Shown: in pieces, positions 2,132-21,609 of the stretch | Numbering within the stretch: position 1 is the stretch's first letter | How the letters are laid out: each line of letters begins with the position of its first letter | Source: a virus | IMG/VR virus record: IMGVR_UViG_3300017719_000200 | Span: 1-23,809 of that record | Strand: one strand, 5' to 3' | DNA: 23,809 nt | Program-made: the position numbers and the translations under genes | Notes under the pieces: generated by a model | The model's input: only the letters and a program-made list of their open reading frames with translations | Told to the model about the DNA's origin: nothing | The model's database searches: none

Positions 2132-4629
2132 GGTTCTACACTAACGTTTTCCAAATTGGTAATGACATCTTGATTCGTGGATATGAGAATGGAAAACATT
2201 TTAGTGATCGACAAAAGTTTCAACCAACTTTATTTGTCCCCACAAAAAGAAAATCAAAGTGGCGGACTCTAGATAATCTTCCTGTGGAGCCAGTTAAACC
2301 TGGAACAATTAAAGATTGTAGAGAATTTATTGATAAGTATAGTTCTGTCAATGGATTTTCTGTATATGGAAATGAACGATATGTTCATCAATACATTTCC
2401 GAGATGTATCCTGAGGATGAAATCAAATTTGACATTGGTAAAATTAAACTGATCACAATTGATATTGAGGTTGCTGCTGAGAGTGGATTCCCTGATCCAT
2501 TTAATTGTGCAGAAGAACTTCTTCTCATTACGATGCAGGATTATGATACTAAGAAAGTCATTACGTTTGGGTCAAAACCTTATGCTAATCAAGATCGACC
2601 CAACTTTACATATATCCAATGTCATGACGAATACGATCTGATTAATAGATTTTTGGATTGGTGGCAAACTAATACTCCAGAAGTTATCACTGGATGGAAT
2701 TGTGAATTTTATGACATTCCATATTTGACTGGTCGCATCGAAAGACTCATGGGAGAGAAGACCATGAAAAAGATGTCTCCTTGGAATATTTTACGCCGTA
2801 ATGAAATCTTTATTGCTGGTCGTAAGAATATCTCTTGTGATGTTGCAGGTATCTCAGTAATTGATTACTTAGATCTTTATAAGAAGTCTCCTGCCACTCC
2901 TAACCAGGAGAGCTATAGATTGGATCACATTGCCTCACAAGAACTGGGACAGAAGAAATTAGACCACTCTGAGTTTGATACTTTCCGAGAGTTCTATACT
3001 AAAGATTGGGATAAATTTGTTGACTATAATATCGTTGACGTGGAACTGGTTGATAAACTTGAGGATAAGTTGAAACTTATTGACCTATGTCTAACCCGTG
3101 CTTATGATGCTAAGGTCAATTTCAGTGACATTGCATATCAAGTTCGTACTTGGGATGCAATCATTTACAACTATCTTAAAAAACAGAATATTGCCATTCC
3201 ACAAAAGGAAAGAAATCAAAAGGATGAGAAGTATGCTGGTGCGTATGTTAAAGAACCTAAGCCTGGAGTTTATGAATGGGTTGTCAATTTTGACCTCAAC
3301 TCCCTATACCCTCACCTCATTATGCAGTACAACATTTCGCCAGAGACGTTACTGGATCAGAAACACCCATCAGCAACAGTAGATAAACTTCTCAATCAAG
3401 ATATTACATTTGAACTATATTCTGACTATGCGGTGTGTGCCAATGGTGCAATGTATAGGAAAGATAAGAAGGGGTTTCTCCCCGAACTTATGCAGAAAAT
3501 GTATAACGAACGTGTCATTTTCAAAAAGAAAATGATTCAAGCCAAGAAAGATTATGAGAAGAATCCTACCAAAGACCTGGAAAAGGAGATTGCACGATGC
3601 AACAATATCCAGATGGCTAAGAAGATTGCTCTCAACTCTGCTTATGGTGCTATCGGTAATCAGTATTTTAGGTACTATAAACTGGCCAATGCGGAGGCGA
3701 TTACGCTTTCTGGTCAAGTCTCTATCCGTTGGATTGAGAATAAGGTAAACTCATATATGAATCGTGTATTAAAAACAAAGGATATTGACTATGTTATTGC
3801 TTCTGATACTGATTCCATCTATCTCAATATGGGTCCTTTGGTCGAAACTGTATACGAGGGAAGAGAAAAAACTACTGAAGGCATTGTCACGTTCCTTGAT
3901 AAGGTGTGTGAGGTGGAACTTGAGCCGTATATTGACAGTGCTTATCAAGAGCTCGCGGACTACGTAAACGCATACGATCAGAAGATGCAAATGAAGCGAG
4001 AGAATATCGCTGACCGTGGTATCTGGACTGCAAAGAAACGATATATTCTCAACGTATGGGATAGTGAGGGGGTCCGTTATAAAGAACCTAAACTAAAGAT
4101 CATGGGGATTGAAGCTATCAAAACTTCCACTCCTGCTCCTTGTCGTAAGATGATTAAGGATGGTCTTAAGTTAATGATGAGTGCAACTGAAGATGAGATG
4201 ATTGATTTTATTGAAACATCTCGTAAGGAGTTTTATGATCTCCCTGTTTCAGCTATTGCTTTTCCTAGAAGCGTCTCTAACATCAATAAGTGGAAATCTT
4301 CATCAGACTTATATGCTAAAGGAACACCAATACATGTTCGTGGATCTATTCTTTATAATCATTATGTCAAACAGAAAAAACTTTCTGGTAAGTATCAAGA
4401 CATTCAAAGTGGTGAGAAGATTAAGTTTGTTTATCTAAAGACGCCTAATCCTATGCATGAGAATGTTATATCTTTTATTCAGGAATTCCCTCCTGAATTT
4501 GACCTAGATAAGTATGTCAATTATGAATTGCAATTCAGCAAATCTTTCATTGAACCGATCAAAGTAATTCTTGATTGTATTGGTTGGGAAGTTGAAAGAA
4601 GAAATACTTTGGAGACATTTTTTACATGA
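2128..4629 (+). CDS. 43: Family B DNA polymerase, T4 gp43-like
   Basis: The phage replicative DNA polymerase with 3'-5' proofreading. The 833-residue protein shows exonuclease motifs in order: Exo I (ITIDIE, D112/E114), Exo II (NCEFYDIPYL, D197) and Exo III (YNIVDVELV, Y300/D304). Polymerase motifs follow: A (NFDLNSLYP, D389), B (KKIALNSAYGAIGN, about 498-511) and C (ASDTDSIYL, D560/D562). All catalytic acids are present, so it should be active. It is somewhat shorter than T4 gp43 (about 900 aa), as I recall is usual for cyanophage versions. The start overlaps the previous TGA, and the final codons overlap the ATG of the cytidylyltransferase-like gene (ATGA at 4626). In T4 it works with a sliding clamp and loader (gp45, gp44/62), which are not in this window. 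No intein or homing-endonuclease insertion is seen. Confidence 0.97.
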   Translation: MRFYTNVFQIGNDILIRGYENGKHFSDRQKFQPTLFVPTKRKSKWRTLDNLPVEPVKPGTIKDCREFIDKYSSVNGFSVYGNERYVHQYISEMYPEDEIKFDIGKIKLITIDIEVAAESGFPDPFNCAEELLLITMQDYDTKKVITFGSKPYANQDRPNFTYIQCHDEYDLINRFLDWWQTNTPEVITGWNCEFYDIPYLTGRIERLMGEKTMKKMSPWNILRRNEIFIAGRKNISCDVAGISVIDYLDLYKKSPATPNQESYRLDHIASQELGQKKLDHSEFDTFREFYTKDWDKFVDYNIVDVELVDKLEDKLKLIDLCLTRAYDAKVNFSDIAYQVRTWDAIIYNYLKKQNIAIPQKERNQKDEKYAGAYVKEPKPGVYEWVVNFDLNSLYPHLIMQYNISPETLLDQKHPSATVDKLLNQDITFELYSDYAVCANGAMYRKDKKGFLPELMQKMYNERVIFKKKMIQAKKDYEKNPTKDLEKEIARCNNIQMAKKIALNSAYGAIGNQYFRYYKLANAEAITLSGQVSIRWIENKVNSYMNRVLKTKDIDYVIASDTDSIYLNMGPLVETVYEGREKTTEGIVTFLDKVCEVELEPYIDSAYQELADYVNAYDQKMQMKRENIADRGIWTAKKRYILNVWDSEGVRYKEPKLKIMGIEAIKTSTPAPCRKMIKDGLKLMMSATEDEMIDFIETSRKEFYDLPVSAIAFPRSVSNINKWKSSSDLYAKGTPIHVRGSILYNHYVKQKKLSGKYQDIQSGEKIKFVYLKTPNPMHENVISFIQEFPPEFDLDKYVNYELQFSKSFIEPIKVILDCIGWEVERRNTLETFFT

Positions 4630-5084
4630 AGAGAATAGTTACTCTTGTGACGGGAGGATTTGATCCTATCCACAGTGGACACATCGCATATTTTAAAAAA
4701 GCTAGAGAACTTACCAACTATTTGGTAGTAGGATTGAACACAAACGAGTGGTTGAAGGATAAGAAAGGTCAGTACTTCCAAGACTGGAAAGAACGTGCAG
4801 AGATTATTCGACACCTAGAGATGGTCGATGCCGTTATTACTGTTCCGTATGATGAGAAGGGATCTGCATGTGGAGCGATTGAGAGTTGTTTGGAAATTGC
4901 ACAGACAATAGTCTTTGCTAATGGTGGTGATCGTGGTAAGGATAATACTCCAGAAGTTGATATGTATGGAGATAATTCTAGGGTTGAGTTTGAATATGGT
5001 ATTGGTGGAAGTGACAAACTGAATAGTAGTTCTTGGTTACTTCATGACTACTTTAATAGGCAAAGAAAAATTCTTGGTATATGA
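4626..5084 (+). CDS. Cytidylyltransferase-like protein
   Basis: A 152-residue protein with the nucleotidyltransferase fold of the HxGH superfamily (glycerol-3-phosphate cytidylyltransferase TagD, RfaE C-terminal domain). The nucleotide-binding start is TGGFDPIHSGH with HSGH at residues 16-19. Residues 36-43 (GLNTNEWL) match the family's GLNSDE-type loop, and FANGGDRG (about 93-100) matches the GGDY-type loop. The Ser-rich NSSSWLLHDYF near the end is where the ISSTxIR-like motif usually lies, though in altered form. Relatives join CTP or ATP to a phospho-sugar or polyol, releasing pyrophosphate; the substrate is unknown here. Its length is near that of stand-alone TagD (~130 aa). It overlaps gp43 at its start and the next gene at its end, so it belongs to the replication transcript although its chemistry points to sugar or envelope metabolism. 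Confidence 0.8.
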   Translation: MKRIVTLVTGGFDPIHSGHIAYFKKARELTNYLVVGLNTNEWLKDKKGQYFQDWKERAEIIRHLEMVDAVITVPYDEKGSACGAIESCLEIAQTIVFANGGDRGKDNTPEVDMYGDNSRVEFEYGIGGSDKLNSSSWLLHDYFNRQRKILGI

Positions 5085-7325: not shown

Positions 7326-7863
7326 ATTCATAAAGCAATGTGAGGCTTTTGATTCTGTAACTTGCCAGTCCTTAATTGATATTTTTGAAGAATCTGATAA
7401 CAAAGAACGTGTTGACAATTTTGGACGCCCTAATTTCACACAAGTAAATCTCAATCAAGAAAAAAAATATCGTAAGTTTGTTCAGATTCTTTCTTACAAA
7501 TTTATTGAAGTGTTTAGATCTTACAAAGAAGGTTTGGAGAGTTATTCTGAATGGTTTCCTCATAAGATCTTTCTGGAAGAACTTAGGATTAAAAAGTACG
7601 AACCTGATTCTGATGATATGTTTGATTTGCATGTCGATGTTCAGGATCATGATACGGCAAAAAGATATCTTGCTTTTTTGTGTTATCTAAATGATGACTT
7701 CTTTGGAGGCGAGACTGATTTCCCATATCATAAATTGACAGTGAGACCAAATACTGGTACAGTACTGGTGTTCCCACCCACATGGCAGTATCCACATAGA
7801 GGTTTACCTGTAAAAGAAGGTAAACCAAAATATATTCTGAGCACATACTTACACTATCATTGA
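7318..7863 (+). CDS. 2OG-Fe(II) oxygenase, prolyl 4-hydroxylase type
   Basis: A 181-residue protein; the ATG at 7318 (MDEFIKQCEA) is preferred over the upstream in-frame ATG at 7204, which would run ~120 nt inside uvsX. It matches the P4H-like fold: HxD in MFDLHVDVQD (H105, D107), then RYLAFLCYLNDDFFGGETDFP, the classic strand with a GGET turn. TGTVLVFPPTWQYPHRG gives the distal H160, and PKYILSTYL supplies a basic residue (K171) where 2-oxoglutarate is bound. Family members hydroxylate prolyl or other protein side chains, so a proteinaceous substrate is more plausible here than for the other three oxygenases; this is inference. The stop overlaps the next ATG by one base (TGATG). Confidence 0.87.
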   Translation: MDEFIKQCEAFDSVTCQSLIDIFEESDNKERVDNFGRPNFTQVNLNQEKKYRKFVQILSYKFIEVFRSYKEGLESYSEWFPHKIFLEELRIKKYEPDSDDMFDLHVDVQDHDTAKRYLAFLCYLNDDFFGGETDFPYHKLTVRPNTGTVLVFPPTWQYPHRGLPVKEGKPKYILSTYLHYH

Positions 7864-9242
7864 TGGAAACGATTGAAAAGACAATACTTAAGAATCTAAT
7901 TCTTAATGAGGACTACACTAGAAAGGTTCTTCCTTTTCTTAAGAAGGATTATTTTGATAGTGTTCATGAAAAGGTAATTTTTGAAGAGTCTGAGAGATTT
8001 ATTGGTGAGTACAATAAGTGCCCTACTGTAGAGATTCTGAATATTGAGTGCGAGAAACGGTCTGATATCAATCAGGAAACATTCCAGTCCGTGGTCGATT
8101 CTCTTTCTGAGTTTGATACGGACTCCTCTAATGAAGAATGGTTAACTGACGTTACTGAGAAATGGTGTAGAGATAGAGCGATTTACCTTGCTCTTGTGGA
8201 GAGTATAGGTATTGCGGATGGTAACAATGAAAAGAAAGGTATAGATGCTATCCCCTCTATACTCTCTGATGCGTTATCCGTAAGTTTTGATAATCATGTT
8301 GGACATGACTATCTGCAAGATGCTTCTGAACGATTTGATTTCTATCATCAGAAAGAAGAAAGAATTCCATTTGACTTAGAATTCTTTAATAAGATTACAA
8401 AGGGTGGTCTTTGTAATAAAAGTCTAAACATTGCACTTGCTGGCACTGGGGTGGGTAAGTCTTTGTTTATGTGTCACGTTGCTGCTTCAGTTCTTCTAAG
8501 AGGAAAGAATGTTCTATACATTACGATGGAAATGGCTGAAGAAAAAATTGCAGAAAGAATTGACGCAAATCTCTTGAACATTCCTATTCAACAGTTGACT
8601 GATTTGCCTCGGTCAATGTTTGAAAACAAAGTAAGTAAACTTGCGGAAAAAACTCAGGGGTCTCTTATAATTAAAGAGTATCCAACTGCAAGCGCACACA
8701 GTGGACATTTTAGATCACTCCTTAATGAACTTGCACTTAAGAAGTCATTTAGACCTGATATTATTTTTGTTGATTACCTTAATATATGTGCTTCCGAAAG
8801 GTATCGCGGAAATAGCACTGTCAATTCATATTCATATATTAAAGCTATTGCAGAAGAACTTAGAGGATTGGCTGTTGAAACAAGAGTCCCTATCGTTTCT
8901 GCCACGCAGACCACTCGTTCTGGTTATGGTAGCTCTGACGTTGAGCTTACTGACACTTCTGAGTCCTTTGGTCTCCCTGCTACTGCTGATCTTATGTTTG
9001 CCCTTATTTCTACAGATGAGCTTGAGGACTTGGGACAAATTATGGTGAAACAATTGAAGAACCGTTACAACGATCCAACCGTCAACAAAAGATTTGTTGT
9101 GGGTATTGATCGTGCCAAGATGAGACTTTATGATTGTGAACAATCTGCTCAGGACGATATCCTTGACAGTGGTCAAGACGAGGAGTATAATTACGAAGAG
9201 TCTAAAAAATCCAAAGACAAATTTTCCTCACTTAACTTTTGA
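7863..9242 (+). CDS. 41: DnaB-type replicative helicase, T4 gp41-like
   Basis: The replicative 5'-3' DNA helicase that travels on the lagging strand and partners with primase gp61 (encoded at 22032). The ATG at 7863 is preferred to the TTG at 7860, giving 459 aa, close to T4 gp41 (~475). The N-terminal ~150 residues are the helical DnaB N-domain. The RecA-like motor follows, with Walker A AGTGVGKS (193-200), the catalytic-Glu strand YITMEMAEEKI (E223), Walker B IIFVDYLN (D304), and the sensor segment VSATQTTRSG (about 346-354). An acidic/polar tail (about 425-459) is probably flexible. It is coupled to both neighbours by one-base overlaps (TGATG). Confidence 0.95.
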   Translation: METIEKTILKNLILNEDYTRKVLPFLKKDYFDSVHEKVIFEESERFIGEYNKCPTVEILNIECEKRSDINQETFQSVVDSLSEFDTDSSNEEWLTDVTEKWCRDRAIYLALVESIGIADGNNEKKGIDAIPSILSDALSVSFDNHVGHDYLQDASERFDFYHQKEERIPFDLEFFNKITKGGLCNKSLNIALAGTGVGKSLFMCHVAASVLLRGKNVLYITMEMAEEKIAERIDANLLNIPIQQLTDLPRSMFENKVSKLAEKTQGSLIIKEYPTASAHSGHFRSLLNELALKKSFRPDIIFVDYLNICASERYRGNSTVNSYSYIKAIAEELRGLAVETRVPIVSATQTTRSGYGSSDVELTDTSESFGLPATADLMFALISTDELEDLGQIMVKQLKNRYNDPTVNKRFVVGIDRAKMRLYDCEQSAQDDILDSGQDEEYNYEESKKSKDKFSSLNF

Positions 9243-10237: not shown

Positions 10238-10954
10238 ATGGCAGGAACTCTATCAGAAAGACAAGAAACTGGTCTTGTTGATGCAATTAATTCCTTCGCT
10301 GAGACTAAAGGAGGTAAACCCTTCACTCTGCAGGCGGGTTCAACTAGACTGACTAATGTTCTTTCTGCCAATAAAGTAATGGGTAGATCTGCATCTGGTG
10401 ATGAACCTTACACCGATGTTGAGATTAGATCTACAAATAGTCTTTTTAAGTTATCTATGAAAGGTCCAAGTGCTCCTAGTATGGCTGGTGGAGGACTAAA
10501 TGGACTAGAAAAAATTGTTCCAGGATTTAGTGGAAGATTTATTCAAGCCGCTTATAATAAGTATTTGCAACTAGGATTTACTCAAGGCCAACAGGTTCCA
10601 GATATATACGGACAAATTAGTCCCGAATTAAAAGAGACTATTGTCCTTGGAACGCAACCTATGGGAGGACCAATTACTCACATGTATATTGGTCCTATGG
10701 ATGTTCACTCTACATCTAGTGGCAATGTTTTAACCGTTAATGGTAGACTTCATGATGCTAAGAAATATGCGAAAGAACACGATCTTTATTTGAGACTTAG
10801 GAAGAGAAGAAAAGATCAACCTTTTGAAACAATGGAAAGGGATAATAAAGGGTATCCATTGATTCTTGGAAAATCCCCTAGTGCTGGTGATAAGGGTAGG
10901 AGAATTGTGATTGTGGCTAAACCACCATCAAATGCCATAGTGGTAACCTTTTAA
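10238..10954 (+). CDS. Hypothetical protein, possible nuclease-like core
   Basis: A 238-residue protein from the ATG at 10238. A conserved-looking block spans residues 54-100: GDEPYTDVEIRS, then FKLSMKGPSAPSMAGGGLNGL. The acidic D60/E62 followed 11-13 residues later by a strand ending in S-x-K (S73, K75) resembles a PD-(D/E)xK nuclease core in which the second acid is replaced by Ser. This is weak evidence and I would not call it a nuclease without a structure comparison. The C-terminal half contains GPITHMYIGPMDVHSTSSGNVLTVNG and a very basic stretch (LRLRKRRK, about 184-192) that could bind nucleic acid. It precedes the late gene cluster. Its stop codon overlaps the late promoter box at 10953, so it probably ends the preceding transcription unit. 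Confidence 0.65.
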   Translation: MAGTLSERQETGLVDAINSFAETKGGKPFTLQAGSTRLTNVLSANKVMGRSASGDEPYTDVEIRSTNSLFKLSMKGPSAPSMAGGGLNGLEKIVPGFSGRFIQAAYNKYLQLGFTQGQQVPDIYGQISPELKETIVLGTQPMGGPITHMYIGPMDVHSTSSGNVLTVNGRLHDAKKYAKEHDLYLRLRKRRKDQPFETMERDNKGYPLILGKSPSAGDKGRRIVIVAKPPSNAIVVTF

Positions 10955-10960
10955 TAAATA
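10953..10960 (+). promoter_or_regulatory. T4-like late promoter box
   Basis: AATAAATA lies 23 nt before the GTG start at 10984 and overlaps the preceding TAA stop. T4-like late promoters carry TATAAATA-type boxes read by the phage sigma factor gp55; the distance agrees with the other boxes in this window. Confidence 0.5.
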
Positions 10961-10983: not shown

Positions 10984-12279
10984 GTGAAAAGTTTTCTAGA
11001 ATTTATATCCGAAGCCGTCAAAACTACTGCTTCCACTCAAGCCAAACAAAAAGGTTTGACTGGAGATGGACATGGTGGATGGTACGATAAAGGCGGAAAA
11101 TTTGTAGCAAAAACAGTTAATGGTAAGTTAAAATTTACTAGTTCTGGCGGAGACTCTAAAAGTGAGGCACCAAAACAAGGAAGTCCTTCTAAACCTAATC
11201 TTCCAGGCAATACTAAGTCTCCAGATAATTCTTCCTCGACACCTACTTCTAAACCCAGTAAAGATTCTAATCCCGATCAGAAAAATAGTGAATCGGAAAA
11301 AGTAGAACCCGAACTCCAATCACTAGAGACGATGGGAGAACCATCTTCTGATGGTGCTGTGATTGTATTTGGTAGGTTCAATCCACCAACTGTTGGACAT
11401 GAAAAACTTCTTAAGGCCGCAGGCAGTGAGGCTAAAAGATCTAAGTTTGATTTAAGAATTTATCCAAGTCGTACCCAAGATCCTAAGAAAAATCCTTTAG
11501 AACCTTCAAGTAAAATTGAATACATGAGGATTATGTTCCCTGACTTTGAAGATGACATCAGGGATGATCCAGAAGCAAAGACTATCTTCAATGTTCTGCA
11601 ATCATGTTATGGCCTTGGGTATAAGTCTGTAACAATTATAGTTGGACAGGATAGACTTGCTGAGTTTCAAAGTCTTGCTCAAAAATATAATGGAGATCTC
11701 TATGATTTTGAGGAGATAAAAGTAATCTCTGCTGGAGCTAGAGATGCTGATTCCGAAGGTGTTGAGGGTATGTCGGCATCCAAAATGAGAAAGGCTGCAA
11801 AGGATGGGGACTTTAAGATGTTTACTACGGGTATTCCAAACACTCTCGGAAACGTAGATAAGAAACAATTGTTTAATACCCTACAGAAGAGTATGGGAGT
11901 ATCCGTATCCGAAGATTGGCAAATTGCTCCTAAGTTAGATCCCGAAGGTCTTCGGGTTGCTTATATGAGTAATACTATTTTTTCCATGGGAACATTAGTT
12001 GAAAATACTAATACTGGAGAGGTGGGGAGAATTTCTAGACGTGGCACTAACTATGTTATTTGTATGACTCCAGAAGGAACAATCTTTAAGTCATGGTTGA
12101 GAGATATCATGGAAGCATATGAAGTTGGTACTGATGACTATAGAAAGTATGTTCAGTCTATGACACCAGGACAAAGTAAAAAAAAGTTTGGTTTTCCAAA
12201 GGATAGGATTAAAGCAACAGTGCTTCCAATGAAACCTAATGATCCTGCCTCAGGTCCAGGAACCAAATACAATAAATAA
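10984..12279 (+). CDS. Head-interior protein candidate: capsid-targeting peptide plus nucleotidyltransferase domain
   Basis: A 431-residue protein with a GTG start. Residues 1-11 (MKSFLEFISEA) closely resemble the capsid-targeting peptide of T4 internal head proteins (MKTYQEFIAEA); ISE|A at residues 8-11 fits the T4 gp21 protease rule (L/I)xE|A. Residues 24-52 (LTGDGHGGWYD...GKFVAK...LKF) form a small module, then about 54-118 is a Ser/Pro/Lys linker. Residues 125-290 are an HxGH nucleotidyltransferase domain: VFGRFNPPTVGH (TVGH 136-139), IIVGQDR (about 218-224) and a GMSASKMRKAA end motif (262-272), similar to NMN adenylyl- or phosphopantetheine adenylyltransferases. A C-terminal beta module follows (GTLVENTNTGEVGRI...). 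The upstream late box fits a virion gene. I infer an enzyme packaged inside the head; the substrate is unknown. Confidence 0.75.
   Translation: MKSFLEFISEAVKTTASTQAKQKGLTGDGHGGWYDKGGKFVAKTVNGKLKFTSSGGDSKSEAPKQGSPSKPNLPGNTKSPDNSSSTPTSKPSKDSNPDQKNSESEKVEPELQSLETMGEPSSDGAVIVFGRFNPPTVGHEKLLKAAGSEAKRSKFDLRIYPSRTQDPKKNPLEPSSKIEYMRIMFPDFEDDIRDDPEAKTIFNVLQSCYGLGYKSVTIIVGQDRLAEFQSLAQKYNGDLYDFEEIKVISAGARDADSEGVEGMSASKMRKAAKDGDFKMFTTGIPNTLGNVDKKQLFNTLQKSMGVSVSEDWQIAPKLDPEGLRVAYMSNTIFSMGTLVENTNTGEVGRISRRGTNYVICMTPEGTIFKSWLRDIMEAYEVGTDDYRKYVQSMTPGQSKKKFGFPKDRIKATVLPMKPNDPASGPGTKYNK
12271..12278 (+). promoter_or_regulatory. T4-like late promoter box
   Basis: AATAAATA overlaps the TAA stop (12277-12279) of the preceding gene and lies 28 nt before the ATG at 12307, the same geometry as the box before 10984. 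Confidence 0.5.
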
Positions 12280-12306: not shown

Positions 12307-13506
12307 ATGTTTGATAAAAAGTATGATGCGGAAGAGTTAGCATCTGTTTACAGGTCGGTACATGAAAAGAATCTTGATCCCGTAGGTCAGGAAGATGATG
12401 ATATTGATAATGATGGCAAGAAAAATACCAAGTCCGATAAGTATCTGAAGAATAGACGTAAGGTAGTTGGTAATGCAATTGCAAAGGAAGAATTAGAATT
12501 AGACGAGAACCGTCGTGCTGCTCGATCTGCTGGTGGTTACAAGGATGACTCTAAGAAACAGACAGATCCTTCTAAGGATGGTTTCACTGGCATCTCTGGT
12601 TCTATCAAGGACATCATGCGCCAGAACAAAGAGATTGAAGCTGCTAACAAAAAGAAGACTAAGAAAGAAGACGTTGAGGCAGTTGATGAAGGTATGAAGA
12701 AAGCCCGCGAGAACGTTGGTGCTGACACTTGCTGGGATGGTTATAAGGCGAAGGGAACCAAGAAAAAGAATGGTAAGGAAGTTCCTAACTGTGTAAAGGA
12801 AGAGGAGATTCCTGAAGGTATGAATGCAATCAGAGCTGATGCAGGTCCACCTAAAAAGACTATGAAAATGTCTGCAAGTGGTCAAGAACCAGCTGGTGAT
12901 AAACTCTTGAGAAAGGCGAGTCAAGGTTTTAGTAGCTTTATGAATAGACTAAATCCTAAAGCTATGCAGTCGAAACCTGCTGGACCCCAACGTAAACCTC
13001 TTATCTCTACTCCAAAGGAAGAAGTTGAAGTAACTGGAGAAGTGGTTGAAGAGGGTAAGAAAGAACTCTCTAGGGAAAAGAGGAACAAGATGTTCCGTCG
13101 CGCTGGGAACCTCTCCAGAGACGCACTGGCGGGTGGTGAGAAGGGAACTGAAGCGCATAAGAAGTCTGGAAAGATTGTCAAGGCTCTCAACAAAGATGCT
13201 GAAGAGAAAGATAGAAACGATGTCAAGGAGGAAACTCTAGAAGAGAAGAAAGGTCTCTGGGCAAACATCCATGCAAAACGTGAACGTGGTGAATCACCTG
13301 CTAAGAAGGGCGACAAGGACTATCCAAAGACCCTAAAGATTGAATCTACCGAGCACCTCGAAGAGGCTGCTCCTGCTATCGTTGGTGTACTTGCTAAGAT
13401 GGCTGCGAAGAAAGCAGCAGTGCATGTTGCAAAGAAGGGAGTTGGTAAGGTAACAGATAAGATGGGGAAACTCCTCAAGGGAGATGAGGAAGAGGAGGAA
13501 GGTTGA
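12307..13506 (+). CDS. Lys/Glu-rich virion or prohead-core candidate
   Basis: A 399-residue, highly charged protein built from short modules joined by KKE-rich linkers. Residues 30-44 (DDDIDNDGKKNTKSD) resemble a calcium-binding DxDxDG loop and run into KYLKNRRKVVGNAI. Residues 128-163 (GMKKARENVGADTCWDGYKAKG..., then VPNC) are a Cys/Trp module I recall from marine T4-like phage proteins. The C-terminus (354-392) is an amphipathic Ala/Lys helix followed by an EEEEE end. Several positions fit a gp21-type cleavage rule, for example IPE|G (168-171) and LEE|A (351-354). Composition, late promoter and neighbours suggest a prohead-core or capsid-interior protein processed during maturation; this is not proven. 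Its TGA shares a base with the next ATG. Confidence 0.65.
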   Translation: MFDKKYDAEELASVYRSVHEKNLDPVGQEDDDIDNDGKKNTKSDKYLKNRRKVVGNAIAKEELELDENRRAARSAGGYKDDSKKQTDPSKDGFTGISGSIKDIMRQNKEIEAANKKKTKKEDVEAVDEGMKKARENVGADTCWDGYKAKGTKKKNGKEVPNCVKEEEIPEGMNAIRADAGPPKKTMKMSASGQEPAGDKLLRKASQGFSSFMNRLNPKAMQSKPAGPQRKPLISTPKEEVEVTGEVVEEGKKELSREKRNKMFRRAGNLSRDALAGGEKGTEAHKKSGKIVKALNKDAEEKDRNDVKEETLEEKKGLWANIHAKRERGESPAKKGDKDYPKTLKIESTEHLEEAAPAIVGVLAKMAAKKAAVHVAKKGVGKVTDKMGKLLKGDEEEEEG

Positions 13507-15713
13507 TGGCTAAACCAAGTCTCGATGATCTTATCGATTCAGTCAGGAAGGAGAAGGAACCAAAACCTGATCCCAAAAAAGTGGCTGCTGAAAAAAAGAA
13601 AGAAGCTAGAAAGGAAGCTTTGAAGAATGTTCCTGTTGCTAAGACAAAAACAAAGGCACAAAAAGATAAAGAGTCTGGGGAGTCATTCATTTCTCAGGCT
13701 AAGAAAAGAGTTTCTGATGGAAGAAATAAAGAGTTAGCCAGAAAAAAATCTGAAGATACTCTTGCATCTAAAACTAGAGGTAAAGAACTTTCAGATAAGA
13801 AAAGTTCTTTAGAAAAGAAAAAATCTGATGGTGAAGAAAAGAAGAAGAAGATTGCGTCTGAATTGAACTCGGTGCAAATTTCTAAAGTCTCCTCTAAGGA
13901 TTCTACTGCAGAGGCAGGCACAAAGGTTCTTGGCAATGCGTTGAGTTCAGTTGGTGCTATTGGGAAAGCAACTCTTACCGCTACTGATGCTGGTAAGAAA
14001 GCGAGTAAATTGAAGAAAAAAATGGTGCAGAAAATGAAGAAGAACCGAGGTCTTAAGACTGGGGTTTCTTCTACTCAATCTATTAAAGATAGAAAACCTG
14101 AGAAAAAGAAGGAAAAGGAAAAAGATCCATGGAAGGAATCTATGGATTGGAGAGACACGTACATACCAACGGAGATTGATTCTGTGGATATTATTAAACC
14201 TGAACCACTCAAGGCTTCTAATTGGAGAGAAGAGTTTCTTTGGGAAGTAGATGATCAACCTAAAGAACCGAAAGAAAAAGAAAAGCAAATCAAACCAATG
14301 ACAGGAAAGAATACTGTCACTATTAATCCAAAGATTACTGAAGGTATTAGGTTGAAGACCCGCCAGGAGTATATGGATGGACTTAGGAAAGCAAAAGAAA
14401 GAGCCACCAACGCCGCTGGTGCCATCGGTAACTGGTTGAATCCTCCAGCAAAAAATTCAAACGAACCTACCGTAAGATCTGGTGAGAGAACTCCAAACAC
14501 TGGTGGAATTAATCAACCACATATTCCATCCAGAGGACCAGACGGTAAACGATCTGGTAGTGAGGATGATGGAAGTGTAGCACCTCCAAAGAGTACTCAA
14601 CCAGATACCAGAACTCCAGATCAGAAGACAACTCCTGCAGATAAAAATAGGGAAAATAAACCTCCCAGATCAACTCCACCAAAATCAACAGCTCCAGCAC
14701 CATCTTCTACACCAAAGAGAACTGCTGCTGATGAGAAACTGCGTACTGCGGATAAGAAAACACGTATGGCAGCCTGGGCAAAAGCAAATCCAAAACTTGC
14801 TGCTGCAAAAAAAGAAAGGGATCGTACTAGAGGAACGAATCAGACTACGAATCCTTTGATGAAGGATATGAAGTCGAGAATGCCTGCACCCAAAACGGGA
14901 ACAGGGAGTACTCCTGCACCAAAAGCAACTACTCCACCACCAAAAGCAACTCCTCCTGCGCCAAAAGTAACACCCATTAAAGTACAACCACATACGGGTG
15001 CTCAACGACCCACTAATATTACAAATCAACAACCTCAATCTAGATTTAAGAAACCCTCACCAATGAGATTGACAAACTCTTTCTCTGATTGGAGAGGTGA
15101 TCTGCAACTAGATGAAGCAAGTTTAAGAAAACCTGCACCAATGCCTGAGTACAAACCAACAGGTACTAAAAAACCTGTACCAATGCCTGATCACAAAATA
15201 AAAGGTACTAGGAAACCTGTACCAATGCCTAACTATCCTTTAAATCAATCATATGAACCAGAAGGTGAAAATCTTGATGAAGTCATTGGCGGCAAACCTG
15301 GAGACGGATACATTGGTCATCCTAACCTAGATATCAAAAACCCACTTGCTAAGAAGCAGGTTAAGGCACCTACTGGTAATACTGGACTTGCTGGCAAAAT
15401 GGGTGATAGAAAAATGATGATGGATAGGATGAGAAATCGCCTTCGTGAAGATAACCTGACTACTGAAGGAGCAGCCTGGACAAAAAAGTCAGGAAAGAAC
15501 TCCGAAGGGGGACTTAACGAAAAAGGACGAAAGTCTTACGAAAAGGAAAATCCAGGATCTGACCTCAAAGCACCAAGCAAGAAAGTTGGAAATCCCCGCA
15601 GGGCATCCTTCTGCGCTCGAATGAAGGGCATGAAAAAGAAACTAACTAGTAAGAAAACATCTAGAGATCCTGATAGCAGAATCAATAAGTCACTAAGAGC
15701 GTGGAACTGTTGA
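13506..15713 (+). CDS. Large mosaic Lys/Pro-rich virion protein candidate
   Basis: A 735-residue protein; the ATG at 13506 shares a base with the preceding TGA. Order: a Lys/Glu coiled-coil-like region (1-200); a WRDTYIPTE...IIKPEP...NWREEFLWEVDD block (215-250); a Pro/Thr/Ser linker (310-410); an AAWAKANPKLAAAKKE...NPLMKDMKSRMPAP block (422-462); more Pro/Ala linker; DWRGDLQLDEA (528-538); three 14-residue KPxPMP repeats (542-583). A compact C-terminal domain (655-735) begins AAWTKKSGKNSEGGLN and ends SRINKSLRAWNC, with conserved-looking SFCARM; I think this is the domain named DUF6321. IxE|G (277-280) and LxE|A (535-538) fit gp21-type cleavage. No enzyme motif is seen. A role as a processed head or core protein is inferred from composition and context. 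Confidence 0.65.
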   Translation: MAKPSLDDLIDSVRKEKEPKPDPKKVAAEKKKEARKEALKNVPVAKTKTKAQKDKESGESFISQAKKRVSDGRNKELARKKSEDTLASKTRGKELSDKKSSLEKKKSDGEEKKKKIASELNSVQISKVSSKDSTAEAGTKVLGNALSSVGAIGKATLTATDAGKKASKLKKKMVQKMKKNRGLKTGVSSTQSIKDRKPEKKKEKEKDPWKESMDWRDTYIPTEIDSVDIIKPEPLKASNWREEFLWEVDDQPKEPKEKEKQIKPMTGKNTVTINPKITEGIRLKTRQEYMDGLRKAKERATNAAGAIGNWLNPPAKNSNEPTVRSGERTPNTGGINQPHIPSRGPDGKRSGSEDDGSVAPPKSTQPDTRTPDQKTTPADKNRENKPPRSTPPKSTAPAPSSTPKRTAADEKLRTADKKTRMAAWAKANPKLAAAKKERDRTRGTNQTTNPLMKDMKSRMPAPKTGTGSTPAPKATTPPPKATPPAPKVTPIKVQPHTGAQRPTNITNQQPQSRFKKPSPMRLTNSFSDWRGDLQLDEASLRKPAPMPEYKPTGTKKPVPMPDHKIKGTRKPVPMPNYPLNQSYEPEGENLDEVIGGKPGDGYIGHPNLDIKNPLAKKQVKAPTGNTGLAGKMGDRKMMMDRMRNRLREDNLTTEGAAWTKKSGKNSEGGLNEKGRKSYEKENPGSDLKAPSKKVGNPRRASFCARMKGMKKKLTSKKTSRDPDSRINKSLRAWNC
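15129..15251 (+). repeat. Three tandem 42-bp coding repeats
   Basis: Units start at 15129, 15171 and 15213, each opening AAACCTG(C/T)ACCAATGCCT and encoding KP(A/V)PMP plus eight variable residues; the third unit is degenerate after its first half. They lie inside the 735-aa virion protein candidate and look like a slippage-type expansion. The conserved KPxPMP part suggests a selected linear motif or a polyproline spacer. Confidence 0.85.
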
Positions 15714-17154: not shown

Positions 17155-17172
17155 TTGTTTTTTGAGGTAGTA

Positions 17173-17640
17173 ATGAAAGTTGGAATGATTGGTTTAGGTC
17201 GTACAGGTGAAGGTATGGCTCGCCGTATGATTGAAAAAGGTATCGAAGTTTGGGGTTATAGTAGTACCAACTATGAGAATGCCTGTGGACAATATGAAGC
17301 AGGACACCTTAGTGGATGTGTAACTTCAATAGAGTATCTTGTCCGAGCAGTTAAAACTGATAATAAGAAATTTACCAGTGCTGGTAAAATCCCTGGTATC
17401 TTTCAGATTACATGTCCTGAGCAAAAGGCAGAAGACACACTTGATGAATTGCTACCTCTGCTTGAGGAGGGTGATATCATTATTGACCATAGCACCAGTG
17501 ACATAACAAAATGTCAGGAACTGGAACTATACTGTTCTAAGTTAGGTATCTCATATATCTTCTCTGGGGTATATGGATCACCTTATGCCATTGATGTTTG
17601 TTCCAAAATTTTCCAATCCTTATCACCAGGTAATGTTTAA
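17173..17640 (+). CDS. 6-phosphogluconate dehydrogenase-like Rossmann protein, short form
   Basis: A 155-residue protein; the ATG at 17173 has GAGG five bases upstream and is preferred over a TTG at 17155. It matches the N-terminal NAD(P)-binding domain of 6-phosphogluconate dehydrogenase/beta-hydroxyacid dehydrogenases: GLGRTG at 7-12, an alpha helix with MARRMIEKG, WGYSST after the second strand, LLEEGDIIIDHSTSD (97-110) in place of IDGGNS, and SGVYGS (131-136) in place of the GTSGG loop. Both substrate motifs are changed and the all-alpha catalytic C-terminal domain with the active-site Lys is absent. Full-length cyanophage Gnd is an NADPH-generating auxiliary metabolic enzyme; this short form is probably not active in that reaction. 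It ends cleanly in a TAATG overlap with the next gene, so it looks like a stable short version rather than fresh decay. Confidence 0.75.
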   Translation: MKVGMIGLGRTGEGMARRMIEKGIEVWGYSSTNYENACGQYEAGHLSGCVTSIEYLVRAVKTDNKKFTSAGKIPGIFQITCPEQKAEDTLDELLPLLEEGDIIIDHSTSDITKCQELELYCSKLGISYIFSGVYGSPYAIDVCSKIFQSLSPGNV

Positions 17641-18113: not shown

Positions 18114-18241
18114 CTCTAGCACATGTCTTATTTTTCGGATCACTACCCTTTATATGTGCCACCGCATATTTCGGGTACAGAAAAGGTGAGAATAACTATT
18201 ATGAAACCGACGCCTACTCAGGAAATGGAACAGCGCATTAG
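18110..18241 (+). CDS. Tiny membrane protein, 43 aa
   Basis: Starts in an ATGA overlap with the preceding stop and encodes 43 residues: a membrane helix (AHVLFFGSLPFICATAYFGY, about 4-23) and a polar tail (RKGENNYYETDAYSGNGTAH). The coupled start and clear helix-plus-tail design make it credible despite its size. It overlaps the next gene by 41 nt in another frame. Function unknown. Confidence 0.55.
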   Translation: MTLAHVLFFGSLPFICATAYFGYRKGENNYYETDAYSGNGTAH

Positions 18242-18434
18242 AATGCGGTTTGCGTTTGCAATGTCCTCCTTCGGGCGAATGTTTAACCCTTCAGGTATAT
18301 CACTAGAAATGAGGCAATTATGTAATGAATGGTCTCAAAATACTGATGAAGATCCCCCTAAAGGTGATTTGTATCATGTTGATCGTTACTTCTTAGAACT
18401 TTGGAAAAATAGAAATGAATCTAAATCTAATTAA
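18201..18434 (+). CDS. Small hypothetical protein, 77 aa
   Basis: The ATG at 18201 (MKPTPTQEME) is preferred over the first in-frame start at 18123 because it shortens the overlap with the 43-aa gene and has AGGTGAG ten bases upstream. The 77-residue protein is helical, with basic and Met/Phe-rich text (RIRMRFAFAMSSFGRMF), then SLEMRQLCNEW and YHVDRYFLELWKNR. It is soluble with no recognisable motif; function unknown. Its end is overlapped by the start of a 52-aa gene. Confidence 0.55.
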   Translation: MKPTPTQEMEQRIRMRFAFAMSSFGRMFNPSGISLEMRQLCNEWSQNTDEDPPKGDLYHVDRYFLELWKNRNESKSN

Positions 18435-20546: not shown

Positions 20547-21038
20547 ATGTCTCTTTGGGGAAATAAAGATACAGCATACGCAACGGGTAACATCACAACG
20601 ATAACCTCAGAAGGTGTAGTTACTGGTTCGGGTACAACTTTCTCCGCATCGGGGCTTGTTGCTGTAGGTCAGGTCATTGCAATGGGTGCATATGGATCTG
20701 GAGTTATTAAGTCGATCGATTCGGATACTCAGTTGACCCTTGATAGTCCTGCTGGACTTACCGCTGGTTCAGGTCTTACTCAGGCATTCAATATTGGGGA
20801 GTCACCCAAGTTTCTTGTTAAGGATGCAGCATATGCTGGTAACCAAATCTTTGGTGCTGATCCTACTGAGGTTGGTGTAGCACGTGGCGGTATCTACGAA
20901 GTCGCACACGCTGGATGGGTCGGTATTAAGACTTACACTGATACACACGGAAATACAAGAACAAAGACTGAAGTCTTTGTTGCAGGTTCTACTATCACTA
21001 GTGATGCTGCCGACGATTCTATCCTTGCCGATAGCTGA
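20547..21038 (+). CDS. Virion structural protein candidate, 163 aa
   Basis: A 163-residue protein with almost all-beta composition and low charge: MSLWGNKDTAYATGNITTI, then GVVTGSGTTFSASGLVAVGQVI (a small repeated-strand unit), LTLDSPAGLTAGSGLTQAFNI, and a C-terminal part GVARGGIYEVAHAGWVGIKTYTDTHGNTRTKTEVFVA. The MSLWGNKD start and the AHxGWVxxxTYxDxHGNxRxKxEV block recur, as I recall, in structural proteins of marine T4-like phages. GGAG nine bases before the ATG is a good ribosome-binding site, and a perfect late box lies upstream. This fits an abundant capsid or fibre-associated protein; the exact place in the particle is unknown. Confidence 0.8.
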   Translation: MSLWGNKDTAYATGNITTITSEGVVTGSGTTFSASGLVAVGQVIAMGAYGSGVIKSIDSDTQLTLDSPAGLTAGSGLTQAFNIGESPKFLVKDAAYAGNQIFGADPTEVGVARGGIYEVAHAGWVGIKTYTDTHGNTRTKTEVFVAGSTITSDAADDSILADS

Positions 21039-21064: not shown

Positions 21065-21436
21065 ATGAAGTTTGATGAGTTAAATGAGAATAATTATGTA
21101 ATTTTTGCAATAAAAAATTATGAAAATCCACATGCAGTAACCAAAGAAGATTTTGAAGAAGATCTTAAAAGGTTTAAGTGGATTAAAAGATTGCTCAAAC
21201 GATATAAAACAACAGGGGTATTAAAAGCACACTTGTTGATTAATCACTTTATTATTTTATATAATGTATTTGGGGAGGCTGCTACTCCCCTATTGTTTTA
21301 TAAGATCGATAATGATTTGTGGCCTGTCGTAAAGACATTTGTTGTTTATTTGGGAAAGTTTCCCGAATATCCAAAGTCACATTTGCATGATATCCCACTA
21401 GATGATACTTGTTTAGATTGTCTAAAAGAATTATGA
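21065..21436 (+). CDS. Conserved hypothetical protein, 123 aa
   Basis: A 123-residue helical protein: acidic start (MKFDELNENNYVIFAIKNY), KEDFEEDLKRFKWIKRLLKRYKTTG, LKAHLLINHFIILYNVFGEAATPLLFYKI, and DLWPVVKTFVVYLGKFPEYP. The middle block with NVFGEAATPLLFYKI is very distinctive and, in my recollection, highly conserved among cyanophages and pelagiphages, but no function is known to me. It is coupled to the next gene by ATGA. A terminator-like hairpin (21272-21290) falls inside the VFGEAATPLLF codons. Confidence 0.75.
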   Translation: MKFDELNENNYVIFAIKNYENPHAVTKEDFEEDLKRFKWIKRLLKRYKTTGVLKAHLLINHFIILYNVFGEAATPLLFYKIDNDLWPVVKTFVVYLGKFPEYPKSHLHDIPLDDTCLDCLKEL

Positions 21437-21609
21437 CCAATGATAATGCTCTCAACAATATGAGAAAGATTGTTAGAGAAATGATGGCAGCTGGATCAGG
21501 TGGATTCACAAATGCCGCAAATGAAAAAGGACCCGTAGCTGGGTATGATCCCGTAATGTCTAAACCTTTGAAGAGAAAACTCAAAAAAGTAAAAGATTTA
21601 AGGAACTAA
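21433..21609 (+). CDS. Small hypothetical protein, 58 aa
   Basis: The ATG at 21433 overlaps the previous TGA. The 58-residue protein has a helix (NALNNMRKIVREMMAAG), then a flexible GSGGFTNAANEKGPVAGYDPVMSKP and a basic tail (LKRKLKKVKDL). The GPxAGxDPxM motif recurs in small and mosaic proteins of marine T4-like phages as I recall, suggesting a short interaction motif. Function unknown. Confidence 0.6.
   Translation: MTNDNALNNMRKIVREMMAAGSGGFTNAANEKGPVAGYDPVMSKPLKRKLKKVKDLRN

Follow-up and report, generated by a model that had tools for sequence, protein, structure and literature searches.

Is the short peptide at the start of a marine phage enzyme a T4-style address that sends the enzyme into the phage head, where it would be cut off? 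This question is raised by one gene of the stretch of DNA analysed here (the window), a 23,809-base virus fragment with the appearance of a T4-like cyanophage. The gene, an open reading frame of 431 amino acids with a GTG start, lies at 10984-12279 on the + strand, as do all features described below between 10953 and 15713.

The gene and its N-terminal peptide

The PHROGs profile matching this product is phrog_395, 'cytidyltransferase' (E 1e-98), a family of T4-like marine phages with 533 phage records. Among named phages, Synechococcus phage Sf-FS3 matches best: its homologue is 80% identical to our protein, and the two sequences have a gene order in common: DNA polymerase, small nucleotidyltransferase, UvsX-type recombinase, helicase, MazG, then the 10984-12279 gene. 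A stand-alone nucleotidyltransferase of 152 residues beside the DNA polymerase (4626-5084; PF01467, 2.7e-12) is untagged and serves as an internal contrast. The choice of 10984 as start is supported by the relatives, as the corresponding codon is again GTG in close ones and ATG in others. Neither a prohead protease nor a major capsid gene was found within the 23.8 kb window.

The protein begins MKSFLEFISEAVKTT, that is MKSFLEFISE followed by A11. In the T4 record, the internal proteins IPIII and IPII start with MKTYQEFIAEA, which is identical at 7 of 11 residues, two further positions being S/T and F/Y pairs. The T4-style start announced by the original prediction is therefore real. On the basis of conservation, profile and structural model, residues 1-10 (10984-11013) are a predicted capsid-targeting propeptide, with cleavage predicted after E10, just before the A11 codon (11014). 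The second half of the claim, a fit to the gp21 protease, stands as well: I-S-E-A at residues 8-11 matches the published rule, L/I-x-E (PMC9026906). In T4 IPIII, residues 4 and 7 are needed for targeting and residues 8 and 10 for processing (PMC9026906; further T4 background is in PMC3012670 and PMC10229621). Two hallmarks of a T4-type capsid-targeting sequence are found here, a hydrophobic residue at each of positions 4 and 7 (MKSFLEF) and, directly behind them, the L/I-x-E triplet (I8-S9-E10). Over 59 aligned sequences, position 10 is E in 58 rows and a gap in the remaining one. Column information in the family profile amounts to 2.72 bits for F4, 2.78 for F7, 2.06 for L8, 0.78 for position 9 and 2.83 for E10; after Met1, the most informative columns are 2, 4, 7, 10, 11 and 8, and position 9 is nearly free. 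Judged by alignment, the conserved columns 4, 7, 8 and 10 match those obtained from T4 genetics. AlphaFold2 predicts a helix at residues 4-12 with middling confidence (pLDDT about 64-78).

Such a start is more than chance, because the strict pattern was present in 132 of 211 family ORFs, compared to 27 of the 781 neighbouring ORFs that reach 80 aa, among the matches listed, and 44 of 11,250 shuffled N-termini (0.4%). Several of the 27 neighbours look like true tags on other proteins, for example a DUF6267 protein starting MKSFKSFLVEA and a DUF6321 protein starting MKSYSEFISEA. Plain regular expressions run on whole genomes gave shadow-frame matches, and were replaced by a position profile with permutation controls. 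This profile was derived from 104 unique marine N-termini, picked by their distance to the core without motif selection, the window being excluded; an earlier version had been trained on motif-selected N-termini, and the scans were rerun unfiltered. Even without the filter, the set leans towards proteins whose core is preceded by 60-200 residues, and the tag pattern fits 82 of the 104 sequences.

Every T4 start codon followed by at least 60 codons, in six frames (2015 starts), was then ranked with the marine profile. IPIII and IPII came joint first and IPI eighth, compared to a median rank of 717 for IPIII with column-permuted profiles, none of which (0/200) placed it in the top 3. The third rank, above IPI, was taken by T4 alt.-3 (122742-123032; MKSSLRFLGQELVVEG). 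In S-SCSM1 (2710 starts), the top two were the virion-detected homologue, whose high rank is not blind as near relatives may be among the training sequences, and SSCSM1_30. In S-SZBM1 (3218 starts), they were SSZBM1_191 and SSZBM1_192, the homologue itself starting with MRFRQFIIE-A, one residue out of the profile register. None of SSCSM1_30, SSZBM1_191 and SSZBM1_192 is annotated or listed as a virion protein.

The enzyme core and its substrate class

In the AlphaFold2 model built on 59 sequences (mean pLDDT 80.3), the tag is followed by a small helix-plus-strands module (residues 15-52, 11026-11139, pLDDT 78-95), a low-complexity linker of low confidence (residues 53-121, 11140-11346), an adenylyltransferase-fold core (residues 122-307, 11347-11904, pLDDT above 90 over most of its length), and a small beta-barrel (residues 336-377, 11989-12114) which by sequence is a separate gene in the S-CAM3-type group described below. 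Residues 2-68 also match phrog_3561, a profile of 934 positions without assigned function, at its positions 5-73. The HxGH nucleotidyltransferase domain proposed initially for residues 125-290 is thus present, with corrected limits and with TVGH as its motif. HxGH-type nucleotidylyltransferases are defined by a (H/T)xGH motif and a C-terminal (S/T)xxR-type motif. Both are found in this protein, as FGRFNPPTVGH, the nucleotide-binding TxGH motif (residues 129-139, 11368-11400), and SASKMR (residues 264-269, 11773-11790). In the 59 aligned sequences F129, G130, R131, F132, N133, P134, P135, T136, G138 and H139 are invariant, and so are S264, A265, S266 and R269; some relatives have HAGH or HMGH in place of TVGH.

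The top Foldseek matches of the model were mainly phosphopantetheine and nicotinate mononucleotide adenylyltransferases, and the best VIA-align match was the phosphopantetheine adenylyltransferase 3pxu (Z 14.2, rmsd 3.0 over 155 residues). Comparing the model with these enzymes, as had been proposed, confirmed the fold and left the two families tied. Because of this fold match and of the invariant TxGH and SASxxR motifs, the protein is likely an active nucleotidylyltransferase. Going by the model, the most likely type of reaction would place the AMP of ATP on an acceptor that bears a phosphate (NMN, NaMN, phosphopantetheine or another); the modelled fold is equally close to PPAT and to NadD/NMNAT, and NAD, CoA and cytidyl are each not established. 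Cytidylyltransferases carry an RTxGISTT-type signature. By inspection this signature is absent from the protein, where the region reads EGMSASKMRK, and at the level of these motifs no support was found for the 'cytidyl' database label.

Two other readings of the core have to be weighed. According to the first, which is the view of the S-SCSM1 and S-CREM2 papers, the protein is a virion-borne NMNAT raising NAD early in infection. NadD and NMNAT chains, archaeal NMNAT included, are indeed less than one Z unit from the best match, and phages reportedly restore NAD when host defences deplete it (PMC9503650). However, the phosphopantetheine adenylyltransferase does equally well in the fold comparison, and the three matches from a profile search against the sequences of solved structures had a best E of 0.34, none being labelled NMNAT, so that we hold this precise identity to be unlikely. 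According to the second, the protein is packaged as a structural or DNA-binding internal protein, its catalysis lost or irrelevant and its fold an inert passenger. The long disordered linker, the low-complexity neighbours, the lack of a named substrate and a Pfam CTP_transf_like match below cut-off (14.9 vs 21 bits) would agree with it, but the strict invariance of GRFNPPTxGH and SASxxR in the 59 sequences suggests selection on the active site, and makes this reading improbable.

Distribution of the peptide

Homologues were collected by IMG/VR scans, each giving the best 80 of 590-odd relatives (10 loci in the first scan). The 311 loci were reduced to 229 unique cores by removing duplicates and 19 loci without a core-pattern match; the window is counted among the 229, and among the 137 with a full tag. 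The original prediction named homologues lacking the peptide as evidence against it, and the outcome is mixed. Among the matches listed, 137/229 cores carry the full tag, 18 show looser spacing up to an E[AGST] site (chance-like in a few cases), and 22 have a tag with a different residue after E. On the other side, 37 have no tag because their core begins at most 13 residues from the start, 11 have a degenerate or missing tag, and 4 are impossible to judge. Full-length queries yielded a full tag in 76 of 76 unique cores among the matches listed, a count biased towards tagged proteins as the query contained the N-terminus; core-only queries were hence counted separately, with a full tag in 60 of 152 unique cores among the matches listed. 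In one S-CAM3-type split-gene group (loci L106-L132, 26 unique cores), 26 of the 27 loci have M(K/R)x(F/Y/L)xx(L/F/I) at the start of the next gene, which bears the full tag in only 1.

On a FastTree tree of the 229 cores among the matches listed, labelled with a looser pattern (159 tagged, 67 untagged, 3 undetermined), parsimony requires a raw minimum of 15 changes between the tag states. The start of the protein was also inspected in 14 annotated phages. Eleven are tagged (S-SCSM1, S-P4, S-RIM2, S-PRM1 with a 12-residue version, Melnitz-2, S-N03, P-RSM6, S-SZBM1, S-SM1, Sf-FS3 and S-CREM2), and HTVC008M, K64-1 and S-CAM3 are untagged. Near the HTVC008M nucleotidyltransferase (locus L020) lie a Zeta-toxin/AAA_33-type kinase starting MIPFILKEG (3291-3953) and an NT5C-type phosphatase starting MKYSAFKAET (7857-8447).

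Tag-type starts occur in other settings too. They stand 18-19 residues ahead of the core in two loci (L203, L265), ahead of an extra domain of ~400 residues in three (L200, L202, L213), and on unrelated proteins, with DUF6321 in L125 and S-SZBM1_192 and with DUF6267 in L244. DUF6321 is a basic cysteine-containing domain (L125:3061-3426, S-SZBM1_192, and the C-terminus of the window product 13503-15713); two short DUF6321 proteins start tagged (MKSYSEFISEA, MKTFKQYITEA), and from its sequence the domain may be an IP-like head protein. A further protein, L210:1419-2477, combines HEFVHHMD (HExxH-like) with the full tag MKSFVEYITEA, without Pfam support, and is a possible packaged metallopeptidase.

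DUF6267 (PF19782) is absent from the window and present in 116 of 229 family loci among the matches listed, 106 times upstream of the nucleotidyltransferase and 10 times fused to it (examples are L244:808-2028, L197:867-2114 and, in S-RIM2, L018:2869-3765). Its start is tag-like in 18 of these 116, among the matches listed, the residue after E being A/G/S/T in 8, D in 9 and K in 1. In its model (mean pLDDT 91.5), RNA ligases fill the first 15 VIA-align places at modest Z values (8.1-8.9); Foldseek alone found no convincing match (best E 0.098). K58-x-D-G (L244 numbering) and E370-G-x-V, invariant in 46 sequences, are presumably ligase motifs I and IV, and the model looks like an uncharacterised RNA-ligase-type protein. 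Besides, the MS-detected S-CREM2 ORF156 has a Pol-beta-type nucleotidyltransferase domain (PF01909, 21.4 bits vs a cut-off of 21). The tag-like DUF6267 starts, ligase-like fold, KxDG motif and S-CREM2 ORF156 lead us to a broader and doubtful proposal: that an ancient, transferable targeting peptide preloads marine T4-like heads with nucleotidyl-transfer and nucleic-acid-repair enzymes, where the adenylyltransferase and DUF6267 would form a pair, injected as a repair or end-modification kit to counter RNA- or nucleotide-targeting defences of the host during the first minutes of infection.

Predicted expression and processing, and virion evidence

The late-promoter motif reported for cyanomyoviruses (PMC2984593) was found by motif search as NATAAATA, 23 nt upstream of the start codon (10953-10960). 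The window has 5 copies of ATAAATA, below the chance expectation of 7.5, and one isolated copy therefore says little. Among the matches listed, the motif is within 60 nt upstream of 67 of 154 tagged family genes, mostly at 18-25 nt, compared to 81 of 3080 random 60-mers and to 10 of 69 untagged homologues (p 1.7e-5, uncorrected for kinship). It is not enriched over neighbouring genes (168/431 among the matches listed, p 0.34, again uncorrected for kinship). Since the neighbours are equally rich, the motif points to a late cluster around the nucleotidyltransferase gene, and to nothing special about this gene itself.

The neighbourhood resembles, in part, virion genes of relatives. The next gene (12307-13506, 399 aa) has short segments in common with S-SCSM1 and S-SZBM1 proteins, 78% identical over 36 aa to SSCSM1_92, an annotated virion protein, and 61% over 44 aa to the MS-detected SSZBM1_139. 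After it, 13503-15713 encodes 736 aa with a C-terminal DUF6321 (PF19846), its C-terminus being 87% identical over 84 aa to SSCSM1_29, which also has a virion annotation. The products of 20547-21038 and 21409-21609 are partly similar to S-SCSM1 proteins annotated in the same way, and S-SCSM1 genes 89, 90, 92, 93, 95 and 97, near ORF91, are likewise annotated virion proteins. The small protein at 21409-21609 (AGSGGFTNAANEKGPVAGYDPVMS), homologue of SSCSM1_97, is similar (31-40% over some 52-55 aa) to a portion of the N-terminal region in major capsid proteins of cyanophages. A recurrent, EF-hand-loop-like Dx(D/N)xDGxxxxxDxYL segment sits near the N-terminus of genes downstream of the nucleotidyltransferase (window 12307-12480, S-RIM2 h175, S-P4 gp185). 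Further on, 17155-17640 (161 aa) covers only the N-terminal half of the S-SCSM1 gnd (46% over 168 aa) and is therefore a truncated gnd, and 18123-18434 has a weak 43-aa match to an ORF overlapping the zwf start.

The protease has to be sought in relatives. By alignment with T4, Sf-FS3, S-SCSM1 and S-SZBM1 encode gp21 homologues, and their major capsid proteins read FLGE-A, FLAE-A and ILTE-A where T4 gp23, whose propeptide is 65 residues long (PMC9026906), reads FLTE-A. The specificity required by the tag is therefore likely conserved. SfFS3_127 (L354:15443-16834), annotated 'ATP-binding protein', aligns as a major capsid protein. The whole 10984-12279 protein has 2 [LI]xE[AGS]-type sites, not above shuffles (p 0.13); for the first E-A site it is position and conservation that carry weight, not the count. 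A C-terminal cleavage at IME-A (E377) is not claimed, E being present in 52 of 59 sequences with a variable next residue. A polyprotein organisation of the two downstream proteins was also considered and discarded, as their [LI]xE[AGS] sites are not above shuffles (p 0.21-0.26). No report of a mature N-terminus for this virion nucleotidyltransferase family was found in the literature covered.

Four relatives have been detected in virions by mass spectrometry: the putative cytidylyltransferase T4-GC190 of S-SM1 (PMC3037559), which is SSM1_190 and starts MKKFSAFLNEA; S-SCSM1 ORF91 (SSCSM1_91; PMC9602691, in agreement with the GenBank note; MKSFLQFLKEA); S-SZBM1_140, with 2 peptides (PMC9146016; MRFRQFIIEA); and S-CREM2 ORF154 (SCREM2_gp154), with 3 unique peptides (PMC10665884; MKNFSSFLTEA). 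All four are tagged, and together with the conserved tag they support the predicted packing of the enzyme in the virion. For S-PM2, the virion study did not see the homologue (Clokie 2008, as given by a citing paper), and in the accessible text on S-CREM1 the homologue is not named among the 14 virion proteins detected (PMC9964418). Virion detection of the family and the NAD idea are thus already published, and the novelty is smaller than initially thought. A link of the family to a T4-type capsid-targeting sequence was not found in the literature searched, which was mostly outside subscription journals and preprints: the accessible text of papers reporting a virion cytidylyltransferase or NMNAT describes no targeting peptide or cleavage site, and of the papers on capsid targeting, one has the word cyanophage only in its reference list and another names S-PM2 only for its gp21 homologue.

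We consider it quite probable that the 10984-12279 product belongs to the internal head proteins of a T4-like cyanophage. It would be expressed late, its first ten residues would dock it to the prohead scaffold core via F4 and F7, and a gp21-type protease would then take the tag off after E10, A11 becoming the new start. An adenylyltransferase-type enzyme of ~420 residues would stay in the mature head with the DNA, and could be released into the host for catalysis. What was obtained here is the tag, its conservation and its match to the T4 tag, intact motifs and fold, and the protease and LxE-A sites of relatives. That a late, abundant cytoplasmic enzyme merely adheres to virions, the peptide being a conserved helix capping the module behind it, is very unlikely: the few virion peptides in S-SZBM1 and S-CREM2 and the carry-over through CsCl that two virion studies raise as possible (PMC9602691, PMC10665884) speak for it, but the tag also directly precedes the core, a ~400-residue domain or unrelated proteins, so that it is not tied to one module, and position 9 is nearly free next to a fixed E10.

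T4-like cyanophages are widespread in the sea, and non-structural enzymes are found in their virions, with carry-over as a standing objection. A T4-style tag would explain the presence of the enzyme's relatives in purified cyanophage particles; as a cleavable peptide shared with T4, it would provide a mechanism for virion enzymes and make packaging predictable from sequence across environmental genomes. Its predicted site yields one decisive peptide for existing mass-spectrometry data.

Among known systems, the T4 proteins IPI, IPII and IPIII likewise have an N-terminal peptide of ~10 residues with aromatics at 4 and 7 and (L/I)xE-A at 8-11, but they are small (95-193 aa), IPI being a restriction inhibitor (PMC9026906), whereas the predicted cargo here, in Kyanoviridae-type phages, is an enzyme fold with several domains. 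T4 Alt, an ADP-ribosyltransferase, is also an enzyme in a T4-like head, cut by gp21 near its N-terminus (PMC9026906); it differs by its enzyme family and by its start, MELITELFDED, which departs from the MKxFxxF pattern. Phosphopantetheine and nicotinate/nicotinamide mononucleotide adenylyltransferases resemble our protein by the core fold (Z about 13-14) and TxGH, with 10-17% identity and without its extra modules at both ends. The cyanophage virion proteins annotated as cytidylyltransferase or NMNAT (T4-GC190, SSCSM1_91, SSZBM1_140 and SCREM2_gp154) are tagged members of the same family which, in their case, were detected by mass spectrometry.
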